Positions 54,171-59,760 of a stretch of DNA of 64,000 nt are shown piece by piece; within the stretch, counting starts at the first letter, position 1, and each line of letters starts with the position of its first letter. The stretch comes from Halorussus vallis (GTDB lineage: Archaea > Halobacteriota > Halobacteria > Halobacteriales > Haladaptataceae), in assembly GCF_024138165.1 (NCBI RefSeq), contig NZ_CP100000.1, positions 1,550,001 through 1,614,000 of the forward strand, written 5' to 3'. The translations under genes were made by a program, and so were the position numbers. The notes under the pieces were generated by a model, which saw nothing but the letters and a program-made list of their open reading frames with translations, did not search any database and was not told where the DNA came from.

Positions 54171-55373
54171 CTACTCCTCCGTGACCGTGATGGTCCCCCG
54201 CATTCCGGCGGCCTTGTGGGCCTGGCAGAAGAACTCGTAGGTGCCCGGGACGTCGAAGGTGTGGGTGTACTCGTAGCCTTGGTCGTACATCTTCGACGAC
54301 GGGCCGGGCGTCCCCTCCCAGTTCGCGCCCTCGGGTTGGGACTCGACCACGACGTTGTGGGAATCCGACTCCCAGACCCACTCGACCGTGGTCCCGGACG
54401 TGACGGTCAACTCGGCGGGTTCGAACGTCAGGCCTCCGCCGGGACCCACCTTCACGGGGAGGGAATCCGCGGTGGCCGAGTCGGTGGTGTTCTGGCCGGT
54501 CGTCTCCGCGGGAGGGTCGCCGACGACGATGGTACCGACCATCCCGGCGGTTTCGTGGGGGATACAGACGAACTCGTAGGTCCCCTCGACTTCGAAGGTG
54601 TGGCTGTACTCGTATCCCCGGTCGTAGACCGTGCCGTAGTCGCCCGGCGTTCCCTGCCACTCGGCGCCGTCGGGTTGGTCGTGGACGGCGATGTTGTGGT
54701 TGTCAGACTCCCAGACGAATCGGACGGTGGTTCCGGGGTCGACCGCCAGCGGTCGGTCGGTGCCGGGTTCGAACGTCAGGCGTCCGCCGGGGCCGACCTT
54801 CACGGGGAGGTCGGCCTCGGTCGCGTACTCGGCCTCCTCGCCGGTTTCGGTTTCTTTTCCGGTTTCAGTTTCTTCGGCGGTTTCGGTCGTCGCCTCGCGC
54901 GCGGTCGGTTCGTCGACGGTTCCGGAGACGACGATTTCGCCCTTCATGTCGATCGTCTCGTGTGGCACGCAGACGTACTCGTACGTTCCCTTGACCTCGA
55001 AGGTGTGGCTGTGTTCGTGGCCGGCGTCGTACGTCGCTCCGCTCTCCTCTTCGGTGCCGGTCCAGTCGGCCCCGTCGGGTTTGGTCTCGACCGCGATGTT
55101 GTGTGTGTCGGACTTCCAGACCCACGTAACGGTGGTGCCGGGCGGGACGACCAGCGTCTCGGGGGCGAAGACGTACTTCCCGTCGGGACCGACGGCGACG
55201 GTCGCCGTCGGCCCGTCGCCCGCGGTCGTCGTTCGAGTCGTCGTTTCGCCGCCGGCGCCGATGGCTTCGCGGGCGTTTCCGACGCAACCCGCCAGTGCGC
55301 CGACCGCGAGGGCCGACGCGCTCGCTCGGAGTACGGTTCGTCTATCCGCGACGTCCCGGTTCGGGGGGACCAT
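54171..55373 (-). CDS. Halocyanin-like blue-copper protein with three cupredoxin domains
   Basis: A 400-residue exported lipoprotein. The Tat signal (DRRTVLRASASALAVGALAG) ends in a lipobox cysteine. Three plastocyanin-type domains follow (about residues 55-150, 180-285, 300-400), each with a complete type 1 copper set: an HN(I/V) His and a C-x2-H-x4-M loop (CVPHETIDM, CIPHETAGM, CQAHKAAGM). They are separated by Thr/Glu-rich linkers that encode TETG-type repeats. Halocyanins carry electrons on the outer membrane face. Most have one domain, so three is unusual. TTTTACC near 55399 fits a leaderless start. Confidence 0.93.
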   Translation of the reverse strand: MVPPNRDVADRRTVLRASASALAVGALAGCVGNAREAIGAGGETTTRTTTAGDGPTATVAVGPDGKYVFAPETLVVPPGTTVTWVWKSDTHNIAVETKPDGADWTGTEEESGATYDAGHEHSHTFEVKGTYEYVCVPHETIDMKGEIVVSGTVDEPTAREATTETAEETETGKETETGEEAEYATEADLPVKVGPGGRLTFEPGTDRPLAVDPGTTVRFVWESDNHNIAVHDQPDGAEWQGTPGDYGTVYDRGYEYSHTFEVEGTYEFVCIPHETAGMVGTIVVGDPPAETTGQNTTDSATADSLPVKVGPGGGLTFEPAELTVTSGTTVEWVWESDSHNVVVESQPEGANWEGTPGPSSKMYDQGYEYTHTFDVPGTYEFFCQAHKAAGMRGTITVTEE

Positions 55374-55538
55374 GTTTTCGAGTCCCACCTTCGAAGGTAA
55401 AAGTCGTCCACCTCGTTTTCGAGCCGTGAGAATCGGGTTCGTCGGGAGACGCGTCGAACGACCGTCGCCCATTTCGACAAACTTCCGGCAATCGTTGCAT
55501 CGGCCGGACGAAAAAGTTAGGATTCCGTCTTTTCGGGG

Positions 55539-58034
55539 TCAGTCGTCGTCCGAGGAGACGGGCGTCGCCTTCTCGAAGTCGTCTTCGAGCGAGGCGTCGG
55601 AGTCCTCGTCGTCGCCCGCCGAGTCGCCGGCGTCCTCCAAACCGCCGGCGACCGATTTCGCGACCGGCGTGCGGTCGCCCACCGGGTCGTCGGACGATTC
55701 GGGCGCGACGTCATCGGTCGTTTCGCCCCCGGAGACGCCGCCCGCTCGTCCGGCCCGGTCGACCCCTTCGGCCGCCACCTCGAACTGTGCGAGTGCGGCG
55801 TCGAGGTCCGCCGCCTTCCCTTCGAGTTCCTCGACGACCGTGGTGACCTCGTTGAGCGCCGCGGTCTGCTGCTGGGCGGAGGCGGCCACCCGCTCTGTCT
55901 CGTCGGCGGTGCGGTCGGCGGCCTCCGTCACGTTGTCGACCATCGCGGCGACCTCCTCGGTGCTGGCGGCCTGTTCGTCGGTCGCGGCGTTGATGTCCTG
56001 CATGCCCGTGTTGGTCGCCTCCACGCTGTCGGCCACCGCGAGCAGCGCGTCGCGGGCGTCTCCGACGGTGTCGGCGCCGTCGCCGAGTTCGTCGCGCGCG
56101 GTCCGCATCCGGTCGGCGGTGGTTTCGGTCTGGTCCTGGATGGCCTCGATGTGAGCCTCGATGTCGTCGGCGTGGGTCTGGGTTTCCTCCGCGAGGTTCT
56201 TGACCTCCTCGGCGACCACCGCGAAGCCCTCGCCGCCGGACTCGGCCCGAGCGGCCTCGATGTTGGCGTTGAGCGCGAGCAGGTTGGTCTGCTCGGCCAC
56301 GTCCGAGATGATGTCGACGATGTCGCCGACGGCGTGGATGCGCTCGACCAGTTCGTCGACCTCCGAAACCGCGGTGCCGGCGGTGTCCTCGACGTCCTCG
56401 ATGGCGTCGACGGCCTCCTCGGCCGCGGTGCGGCCCGACTCGGCCCGGTCGGCGGTTTCGCGGGCGGTCGTCGCCACCGAGTCGGCGGTCGAGGCCACCT
56501 CCTCGATGGTCGCCGAGAGGTTGTTGGTTTCGCTGGCCACGTCGCCGAGGCGGTCGCGCTGTTCGTGGGTCCCCTCGCTGATGGTGCCGACCGCCTCGCC
56601 GACCTCCTCGCCGGCGTCGCGGATCTCGGTCGCGCCGGCCGCGAGTTGCTCGGTCCCGGCGATCACCTCGTCGGCGAACGCCTCGACCTCGGCGACCGTC
56701 GCTTCGAGTTCGCCGAGCAGGTCGTTCAGCCGCCGACCCATCGACTCGACGACCCGGTTGTCGCTGTCGGGCGAAACCCGGGCGGTGAGGTCGCCGTCGG
56801 CGGCCGCGGCCATCGCAGTCTCGTACTCCTCGGCCTTGGCTTCGAGGTGCTCGTTGACCCGCTGGGCCTCCCTTCGGGCCTCCTCGGCGTCCTCCTGCTG
56901 GCGCTCGGCCTCGCGGCGGGCCTCCTCGGCCTGCGACTGGGCGCGTTCGGATTCGGCGATGCGCTCGCGGAGGTCCTCGCGCATCCGGTCGAACGCTCGG
57001 AACAGGTCGCCGATTTCGTCGCCGCGGTCGCTCTCGACCGCCGCGTCGAGTTCGCCCCGCCGAAGCGCCTCGGCGTGGTTCGAGAGCACGCCGACCGCCT
57101 TCACGGTCGGGCGCTCGACGACGACGGCGAAGCCGACGAGCAGCAGGCCGACTGCGCCGAGCAACACCAGAATCTGCTGGCCGACCGACTGGGCGACCGC
57201 GAACATGGTGGCGGGCGGCGCGTAGGTCACGAGCGCCCAGTCGGCGCCCTCGATGGCGTCGTGGCCGACCACGACGCGCTCGCCCGCGCCGGCCTGCTCG
57301 GCCGCGAGGACGGTCGTGTTCGCGTCGCCGGCGAGGCCGGCCGTCACCGCGGGCGAGTCGGCGCCGTCGCCCGCGACGTGCTGGGTGCCGACCGCCGACC
57401 CGCTCTCGGTGTCGAGGACGACGACGCCGTCGGCGTTGACCACGCGCGTCCGGGTGCCCTCCATCACGGCGTGGAACCGGTCGGTGACGGCGGCGACCGA
57501 AACCTCCGAAACCATCCAGTAGTTTCCGACCGGGACGAAGAACACCCACGACTTGCCCTCGACGCTCGACCGGAGCGTGACGACCGACTCGCGCTCTTCG
57601 AGCGCCGCGGTCGGCACGTCGTAGTTGAGTTCGGCGATTGCCTCGCCCTCGTAGGTGTCGTCTGAGCTGATTTCGATGCGGCCCGTCGACGAGTTCACGT
57701 AGTGAAGCCGCCGAACCGCGTCGGAGAGTTCGGCCTGCCGTTGGACGAACGACCGGATGTCCCGGCGCTCCTTCGCACTATCCTGGACCGCGGTCTTGAT
57801 CTCGTACGCCCTGTTGGCGAACCGCCGAGTGTCCTCCATCCGCCCGGAGACGGCCGTGTCGACGATGTCGGCCTGGACGACCGCCTGCCCGCCGAGCGTG
57901 GCCTCCTTCTGGGCGCGCACCTGGTCGTTCGTACTCGTGTAGGTGTACGCGCCGACGGTGCCGCCGACGAGCAACACGACGGCGAGGCCGACGACGACCT
58001 TCGCCGTGTAGCTGTTCCGCGGGTCGATTTCCAT
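55539..58034 (-). CDS. Methyl-accepting chemotaxis protein
   Basis: An 831-residue membrane chemoreceptor. TM1 is near residues 12-32, an extracellular dCache-like sensor fills about 35-280, TM2 is near 285-305 ([20 protein letters not shown]), then HAMP, a second HAMP-like piece ([15 protein letters not shown]) and a long signalling coiled coil. The conserved tip is [20 protein letters not shown] (about residue 600). It signals to CheA to bias archaellar rotation. The ligand is unknown. The tail is acidic and Ser-rich. Confidence 0.95.
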
Positions 58035-58114: not shown

Positions 58115-59026
58115 TCAGCTATCGACGAGTCGGTCGACCGACGCGTCGTCCTTCCACTCGCCGAGTTCCTTGGGGTCGACGTGGACGAACACGTCGTCGA
58201 CCTCGTCGAGCGCCCGGATGGACTCGACCACGGCGGTTTCGATGTCGTGGGCCTCCCGGAGCGTGCGGTCGCCCTCGACCTCGATGTGGAGGCTCACGTC
58301 TATCTCGGGGCCGACGTAGTGGGCGATGACGTCGTGGGCGCCCTCGACGTCGGGGTGGGCGAGCGCCCGGCGGATGATGGTCAAGCGGAGGTCGTCGGGC
58401 GGCGCGCTCCCGACGAGGTAGTCGACGTTGTCCTGGACGATTTCCAGGCCGGTGTAGAGGATGGATACCGCGACGACGGTCGCCGCGAGCGGGTCGAGTA
58501 TCGGAAAGCCCAACCGGGCGCCCACGACGCCGACGAGCGCCGCGCTCGCGGTGAGGATGTCGTTGCGGTTGTCGAGCGCGGTCGCGCGCACCGCGGGCGA
58601 CCGCGTCTCGTCGGCCCGAGAGAGGCAGTACCGGTAGAGGCCGAACTTGATGACGGCGGTTCCAGCCAGCACGACGACGGCCGCCGGCCCGGTGGTGACG
58701 ACGACGTCGCCCGACAGAATCGAGGTCGCCGCGCGCCAGAGCACCGCGCCGCCGGCGGCGAACACGCCGACGGCGACGAACAGCGAGACGAACGGTTCGA
58801 TGCGCTCGTGGCCGTGAGGGTGACTGAAGTCCGGCGGCCTGGTGGTGAGGTAGAGGCCCGCGAGGACGACCAGGCTGTAGGCAGCGTCGGCGAGGCTGTT
58901 GACCGCCTCGGAGCCGACGGCGAGGCTGCCGGTCGTCCACCAGACGGCGCCCTTGGCCGCGACGAGCAGGAGGTTGACCGCCAGCACGAGCGCGCCGACC
59001 CGGCGGACGACGGTCCTCCGGGACAT
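58115..59026 (-). CDS. Cation diffusion facilitator family metal transporter
   Basis: A 303-residue exporter of divalent cations (Zn, Co, Fe, Mn or Cd) driven by proton or potassium exchange. Six helices fill about residues 10-215; metal-site residues are visible as GSEAVNSLADAAYSLVVLA (helix II) and RATALDNRNDILTASAALVG (helix V, H replaced by N in the usual HxxxD). A cytosolic metal-binding domain (VIAHYVGPEIDVSLHIEVEG) follows. Upstream on the same strand is the Cys-rich microprotein at 59082, 55 bases away, which suggests an operon. Confidence 0.92.
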   Translation of the reverse strand: MSRRTVVRRVGALVLAVNLLLVAAKGAVWWTTGSLAVGSEAVNSLADAAYSLVVLAGLYLTTRPPDFSHPHGHERIEPFVSLFVAVGVFAAGGAVLWRAATSILSGDVVVTTGPAAVVVLAGTAVIKFGLYRYCLSRADETRSPAVRATALDNRNDILTASAALVGVVGARLGFPILDPLAATVVAVSILYTGLEIVQDNVDYLVGSAPPDDLRLTIIRRALAHPDVEGAHDVIAHYVGPEIDVSLHIEVEGDRTLREAHDIETAVVESIRALDEVDDVFVHVDPKELGEWKDDASVDRLVDS

Positions 59027-59081
59027 GGGTTCTCGTGTTGGTACCGACGGGTCAAGGGCGTGTCGCTTTCGCCGGCCGCGA

Positions 59082-59201
59082 CTAACAGCACCCCGGCCCG
59101 CAGCAGCAACAGTCGACGACGATTTCGCAAGTCGTGGTCCGGTCGGCGTCGGTTCGATTCGCGTCTGTCCGTCGGTCGGTGGTGCAACACTGGTTCGACA
59201 T
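59082..59201 (-). CDS. Cysteine-rich microprotein (39 aa), possible metallothionein-like metal binder
   Basis: A 39-residue ORF starting MSNQCCTTDR with nine cysteines: C5, C6, C25, the run CCCC at 31-34 and a final CC. A TATA-like GGGATAAA element (59228-59234) lies 30 bases before its ATG on the minus strand, as expected for a leaderless gene. It is directly upstream of the CDF exporter and divergent from an HxlR regulator whose own C terminus is Cys-rich. A metal-buffer or chaperone role is inferred; I know no named family that it matches. Confidence 0.6.
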   Translation of the reverse strand: MSNQCCTTDRRTDANRTDADRTTTCEIVVDCCCCGPGCC

Positions 59202-59227
59202 CGCGGTTGGGACTACGGGCGCCGACG

Positions 59228-59234
59228 GGATAAA
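59228..59234 (-). promoter_or_regulatory. TATA-like box of the Cys-rich microprotein gene
   Basis: On the minus strand TTTATCCC, centred 30 bases before ATG 59201. Confidence 0.5.
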
Positions 59235-59307
59235 CGAGTCAGCTTCCCGAGAGGAACTGAGTTTCCTCACCGCGAGGCGGTTTCTGTGCGGAAACCGCCC
59301 GCAGACG

Positions 59308-59314
59308 CTTAAGG
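59308..59314 (+). promoter_or_regulatory. TATA-like box of the HxlR-type regulator
   Basis: CTTAAGG, 24-30 bases before the ATG at 59338, gives a leaderless start. Confidence 0.5.
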
Positions 59315-59337
59315 TGGCGCGCTTCCAAGGAGAGACG

Positions 59338-59760
59338 ATGACCGACGACTCTCGCCCCGTCGACGGCGGTTCGCTCTTCTCGAACGACGCCGACCCCGAC
59401 CGCGAGTGGCAGCGAACGTGGCACGCCGTCCGGGACGTGCTGGGGTCGAAGTGGGCGTTCCACGTCGTGCGCGCGCTCGGAGTCTCCGAGCGCGGGTTCA
59501 ACGACCTCAAGCGCGAACTCGACGGCGTGACCGCCAAGACCCTCTCGGAGCGACTGGGGGAACTGCGGTGTCTCGGCTTCGTCGAACGGGAAGTTCACGC
59601 CACGTCGCCGCCGACCACGACGTACCGACTCACCGACCACGGCGAGCGACTCGCGGCCGTCATGGACGACGTGGAGTCGCTGGTCGAGGTGGTCGAGTGT
59701 CCGGACGGTGACTGTCCGATGGCGTCGGAAGTCGCGCCGGAGTGCGCCTGCGACTGTTAG
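59338..59760 (+). CDS. HxlR family transcriptional regulator with cysteine-rich tail
   Basis: A 140-residue winged-helix regulator. The HxlR core is clear: VRDVLGSKWAFHVVRAL (about residue 31), GFNDLKRELDGVTAKTLSER and PTTTYRLTDHGERLAAV. The last 20 residues add five cysteines (C121, C126, C136, C138, C140; ECPDGDC...ECACDC), not usual for the family and suggesting metal or redox sensing. It is divergent from the Cys-rich microprotein and CDF exporter, its likely targets, and its stop overlaps the HIT gene by 4 bases. Confidence 0.9.
   Translation: MTDDSRPVDGGSLFSNDADPDREWQRTWHAVRDVLGSKWAFHVVRALGVSERGFNDLKRELDGVTAKTLSERLGELRCLGFVEREVHATSPPTTTYRLTDHGERLAAVMDDVESLVEVVECPDGDCPMASEVAPECACDC

Follow-up and report, generated by a model that had tools for sequence, protein, structure and literature searches.

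SmtA is a metallothionein, and SmtB is its zinc-released repressor. In Synechococcus, the genes for this repressor and this small Cys-rich protein diverge over an operator-promoter region of ~100 bp (PMC8790569, PMC7387436). Other small Cys-rich proteins have been described in haloarchaea, including the zinc micro-proteins of Haloferax volcanii with two C(P)XCG motifs each (PMC11241148) and the HcsL, HcsS, Rdx and DUF2703 proteins of arsenic and related loci, which have a Cys-rich C-terminus that ends in CC in HcsL, HcsS and Rdx. Here we describe a locus of Halorussus vallis, found within a 64-kb window (the whole stretch of DNA analyzed), that has the smt-type arrangement at the level of gene order and palindrome, namely a divergent gene for a putative repressor, a small Cys-rich gene and an inverted repeat, the candidate operator, between them (Table 1). 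It differs from smtB/smtA in that the regulator is of the HxlR type and does not belong to the ArsR/SmtB family, the haloarchaeal peptides match no Pfam family, and the candidate operator is GGTTTC-N6-GAAACC rather than 12-2-12. Unlike the C(P)XCG micro-proteins, the peptides carry CC and CCCC clusters with 8–17 Cys each, and unlike HcsL, HcsS, Rdx and DUF2703, which span 62–200 aa and in three of four cases contain a recognized domain, the microprotein has no detectable domain. In a literature search of limited coverage, we found no description of a metallothionein from archaea that has a regulator of its own.

Table 1. Features of the HxlR–microprotein locus, in window coordinates
Feature	Position	Strand	Remarks
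CDF transporter, site A N43/D47/D152/D156	58115..59026	-	judged a probably older neighbor, not a core part
CDF's own promoter-like element CGACACGCCCTT	59054..59065	-	39 bp before the CDF ATG, conserved
Cys-rich microprotein	59082..59201	-	39 aa, nine Cys, ends CC-stop
Microprotein TATA box TTTATC	59229..59234	-	-33 from ATG, spacing kept in most related loci
Second inverted repeat GAGGAACTGAGTTTCCTC, possible second site	59251..59268	.	noticed in the focal locus
Perfect inverted repeat GGCGGTTTC-TGTGCG-GAAACCGCC, proposed HxlR operator	59276..59299	.	sequence, cross-loci pattern
Core GGTTTC-N6-GAAACC	59279-59296	.	within inverted repeat 59276..59299
HxlR TATA-like GCTTAAGG	59307..59314	+	putative; adjoins candidate operator
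HxlR-type winged-helix regulator with Cys tail, 140 aa	59338..59760	+	PF01638
Cys78 codon	59569..59571	+	invariant in Cys-tailed HxlR, missing from Cys-less relatives
HxlR Cys tail (Cys121, 126, 136, 138, 140)	59698..59757	+	predicted disordered

We first consider the microprotein. Only one of the 231 ATG-started ORFs of 25–70 aa in the window reaches 18% Cys, and it is the nine-Cys ORF pointed out in the preliminary description, which the sequence confirms and which recurs in relatives. Its translation, MSNQCCTTDRRTDANRTDADRTTTCEIVVDCCCCGPGCC, is 23% Cys (positions 5, 6, 25, 31–34, 38 and 39) and has no aromatic residue or His. This composition agrees with that of metallothioneins, which are small, contain ~15–30% Cys arranged in CC/CxC clusters and have few aromatics if any; the relatives contain ~16–34% Cys. 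Neither the focal nor the related peptides matched a metallothionein model in Pfam or NCBIfam, and no Pfam or NCBIfam family was detected for the microprotein. We therefore call them metallothionein-like rather than metallothioneins. In a close pair (G032 and G059), differences at codon positions 1, 2 and 3 number 2, 1 and 10, a pattern that fits a coding gene under purifying selection. Within the focal Halorussus family (Haladaptataceae), the peptides vary in length but share the start, an N-terminal MS with an early Cys, and CC at the C-terminus. A spurious ORF was considered and judged unlikely; as far as sequence comparison can tell, this is a real, conserved and unannotated gene. The preliminary description had made conservation of the ORF in related genomes a test of its proposal, and it is conserved there. 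In Halorussus amylolyticus (L125:4980-5165, G011), GG/AACC-like repeats have expanded the microprotein, which has 61 aa and 17 Cys. At L093 (G358) and L147 (G281), the Cys-tailed HxlR genes adjoin divergent microproteins of a different type (53–60 aa, 11–13 Cys), with no terminal CC and no palindrome.

The regulator belongs to the HxlR family by a wide score difference (PF01638, 63.7 bits against a curated cut-off of 20.8). Its five-Cys tail, remarked on earlier, is present as described, and a further cysteine, Cys78, lies in the body of the protein. When 392 genomes of the order were searched with a profile, 42 HxlR matches had E < 1e-28; even the weakest of them reached 8e-37, so that the group is clearly set off from lower-scoring sequences. 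Of these 42, 37 combine Cys78 with a Cys tail, as does the HxlR of Halorarius halobius. All 38 Cys-tailed regulators have Cys78 and a nearby Cys-rich partner (20 microprotein, 11 DUF2703 and 7 SelW-like Rdx), counts that do not represent independent events because many loci share ancestry. The three kinds of partner are unrelated, and all have clustered Cys near the C-terminus. No Cys-rich partner of this kind lies beside the six Cys-less archaeal HxlR relatives (L041–L044, L149, L150); L041 has a zinc-finger-like ORF of a different kind upstream. On the HxlR tree, which lacks L147–L150, the partner types are strongly clustered, with four changes against a minimum of three.

The candidate operator and promoter layout recur with the pair. 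GGTTTC-N6-GAAACC lies between the HxlR and microprotein genes at 16 of the 20 loci, matching 10–12 of 12 positions, and a full-spacer palindrome is not clear at 4 of the 20. A pattern search of the 5.05-Mb genome found a single perfect copy, the focal site. Relative to the microprotein start, the center of the palindrome is mostly at -66/-67 and the TATA box at -33; the focal center is at -86 because of extra bases between palindrome and TATA box, and three loci match the layout solely under a GTG start. The preliminary description had called the TATA-like box well placed, and most related loci keep its distance from the ATG. With this spacing, the microprotein mRNA may be near-leaderless. Like the microprotein genes, Rdx and DUF2703 genes adjoin Cys-tailed HxlR genes, and the DUF2703 partner genes of the sister regulators have a similar palindrome and TATA layout. 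No palindrome was found in Rdx-group loci. At L105, L117–L120, L122–L124 and L102, the DUF2703 proteins have CGCGC-like tails along with the same HxlR palindrome/TATA layout as the microproteins. A scan of the locus for bacterial-type promoters and terminators, whose coverage leaves archaeal signals outside, was empty.

Orthologs of the pair were located via the neighboring HxlR and CDF genes and not by microprotein search. Tblastn with the 39-aa query gave weak, chance-like matches only and missed true orthologs, which are short, of low complexity and variable in length; we therefore rejected this negative as a sign of absence. HxlR and the microprotein lie between HIT and CDF in 7 of 28 Haladaptataceae genomes. 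In the six besides the focal one, the HxlR orthologs are 76–82% identical and divergent from CDF, and every one of these genomes has a Cys-rich microprotein of 29–67 aa between the two. In all 20 cassette-free Haladaptataceae examined, CDF lies 36–108 bp from HIT with nothing between. This joint presence or absence suggests that HxlR and the microprotein were gained or lost as one cassette. Four or more other families of haloarchaea have the pair without CDF, bringing the total to 20 loci in at least five families, with the microprotein ending in Cys-Cys at 17 of the 20. Thus the synteny proposed in the preliminary description holds for HxlR across these 20 loci, but for CDF only in Haladaptataceae (7 genomes); at none of the loci inspected in other families does this CDF stand beside a microprotein pair.

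With restrained confidence, we lean towards a two-gene divergent cassette responding to thiophilic metals or metalloids, in which HxlR would be the repressor and the metallothionein-like peptide its target, with CDF outside. An HxlR dimer would occupy the palindrome between both promoters and repress the microprotein gene and its own. A soft metal(loid), with As(III) as the single best guess, would bind Cys78 and/or the tail cysteines and release HxlR, and the derepressed microprotein, made from its near-leaderless mRNA, would chelate the ion in the cytosol. CDF would be a pre-existing neighbor that may receive some read-through. The compared loci directly show that both genes are conserved, that the palindrome and the spacing of the TATA box recur, and that the HxlR cysteines occur together with a Cys-rich partner. 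A sensor with a Cys-rich buffer is supported by the pairing, by the common palindrome and promoter layout and by the co-conservation of Cys78, tail and partner.

That the ligand is a metal at all we infer. Sister Rdx-type regulators sit in ars clusters, on pHLAC01 in the order arsD-arsA-hcsL-hcsS-peptidase-Rdx-HxlR, and at one Rdx-type locus the neighbors are a methyltransferase gene and an ArsR-like gene. An ArsP permease gene stands next to two of the DUF2703 loci, and Halorarius has an ArsP_2 heavy-metal exporter gene near its HxlR–microprotein pair. Apart from this ArsP_2 gene in one species, no ars genes were seen beside the microprotein pairs themselves. A DUF2703 gene also belongs to an arsenate-induced cluster in Rhodococcus (PMC6514093). 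Because sister regulators sit in arsenic clusters, our leading guess for the ligand is a soft metal(loid), with As(III) as a possibility. Literature searches on HxlR with arsenic and on halo-CC-star proteins found nothing on point. At L106 (G333), an Rdx/HxlR locus has a CDF-like gene (36% identity) nearby, and no ars gene was noticed. The unrelated small ars-cluster proteins HcsL, HcsS and Rdx end in Cys-Cys at L104, L107–L110 and L146, and two proteins of these types carry the NCBI name halo-CC-star.

The preliminary description had proposed a three-part unit, with HxlR, buffer peptide and CDF exporter co-regulated and acting on one metal. Its sensor and buffer are supported by the co-conserved cysteines, candidate operator and promoter layout; the exporter as an integral part is not supported, and we now consider the full unit quite improbable. 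The gene order is kept in 7 of 7 cassette-bearing Haladaptataceae, the microprotein is indeed directly upstream of CDF, with 55 bp from its stop to the CDF ATG (59026), and the simple (bacterial-type) scan finds no terminator-like site in the locus. Against this, CDF (Cation_efflux PF01545 and ZT_dimer PF16916; TIGR01297, 201.5 bits) has an ortholog in all 28 Haladaptataceae genomes searched, one copy being split over contigs, and remains beside HIT in the 20 cassette-free genomes, while pairs in other families lack such a CDF alongside. In 25 of 27 Haladaptataceae, whether the cassette is present or absent, CDF is preceded by a promoter element of its own, CGAYACNNCCTT or a variant of it, at ~38 bp from the ATG. 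The candidate operator is situated in the HxlR–microprotein interval and not at the promoter of CDF. Site A also differs: the YiiP/FieF residues are D-D-H-D (PMC6440370), whereas N43/D47/D152/D156, aligned to FieF D45/D49/H153/D157, give N-D-D-D in 30 of 30 orthologs. The His-containing site A of Zn-type CDFs (DD-HD, as in YiiP) is therefore absent, and the N-D-D-D site would be unsuited to thiophilic ions. CDF is probably a pre-existing core-gene neighbor older than the cassette, and read-through transcription from the microprotein is possible. Upstream of CDF (G019, G022, G026; L065, L066, L068), Haladaptatus genomes with the cassette have a Halorussus-like promoter element and those without it have the variant CGAYATANCCAT, a split that may mean that the whole stretch was transferred or was retained from an ancestor. 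Elsewhere in the window, an ORF with three apparent cupredoxin-like repeat domains, read by eye (54171-55472, minus strand), adjoins a chemoreceptor-like ORF (55539-58034, minus strand).

The main rival is a redox or electrophile response, in which HxlR senses oxidants or electrophiles through Cys and the peptide serves as a thiol buffer or scavenger; we hold it unlikely, though deserving of serious attention. The AF2 model of the regulator matches YodB, QsrR and HxlR structures, and its closest solved relatives, which also include HypR, are presumably all quinone, oxidant or formaldehyde sensors and not metal sensors. These HxlR/DUF24 regulators share the winged-helix fold and sequence family with the focal HxlR but differ from its group, which has the invariant Cys78, the multi-Cys tail and a Cys-rich partner protein. 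The tail is unplaced in the model and predicted to be disordered, so no preformed metal site is visible. The best NCBIfam matches are the redox regulators RrpB/RrpA, well below cut-off, and the partners DUF2703 and Rdx have been linked to thioredoxin-type folds (PMC6514093). On the other hand, the CC, CCCC and terminal CC motifs, the multi-Cys tails and the arsenic and heavy-metal gene neighborhood better suit metal(loid) ligation. We also weighed two readings of the microprotein as something other than a buffer and judged both very unlikely. Polycysteine leaders with ribosome stalling have been proposed for mycobacteria, and a short, apparently leaderless ORF with a Cys run at its end just upstream of CDF could likewise control the downstream gene by stalling at that run; but in other families the next gene is mostly on the opposite strand, leaving nothing downstream to control, the N-terminus is conserved too, and the microprotein promoter has its own candidate operator. 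Hardly more can be said for the precursor of a modified peptide (RiPP/TOMM): GG precedes the Cys run in some relatives and one has a weak TOMM-like match, but this match scores below threshold (16.8 bits, cut-off 35) and no modifying enzyme was seen among the listed neighboring genes.

Beyond the metal(loid)-responsive cassette itself, we tentatively suggest, as a proposal that may well prove too broad, that the microproteins form a widespread and so far unannotated class of metallothioneins in archaea, that the HxlR proteins with Cys78 and a Cys tail controlling them are metalloregulators of a new class, and that the microprotein, DUF2703 and Rdx partners belong to one haloarchaeal regulon for defense against soft metal(loid)s. 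If correct, this would constitute an archaeal analogue of smtAB made of different parts and would extend the range of HxlR-family regulators to the sensing of metal(loid)s. It would also explain a set of overlooked micro-genes and provide a precise candidate operator.
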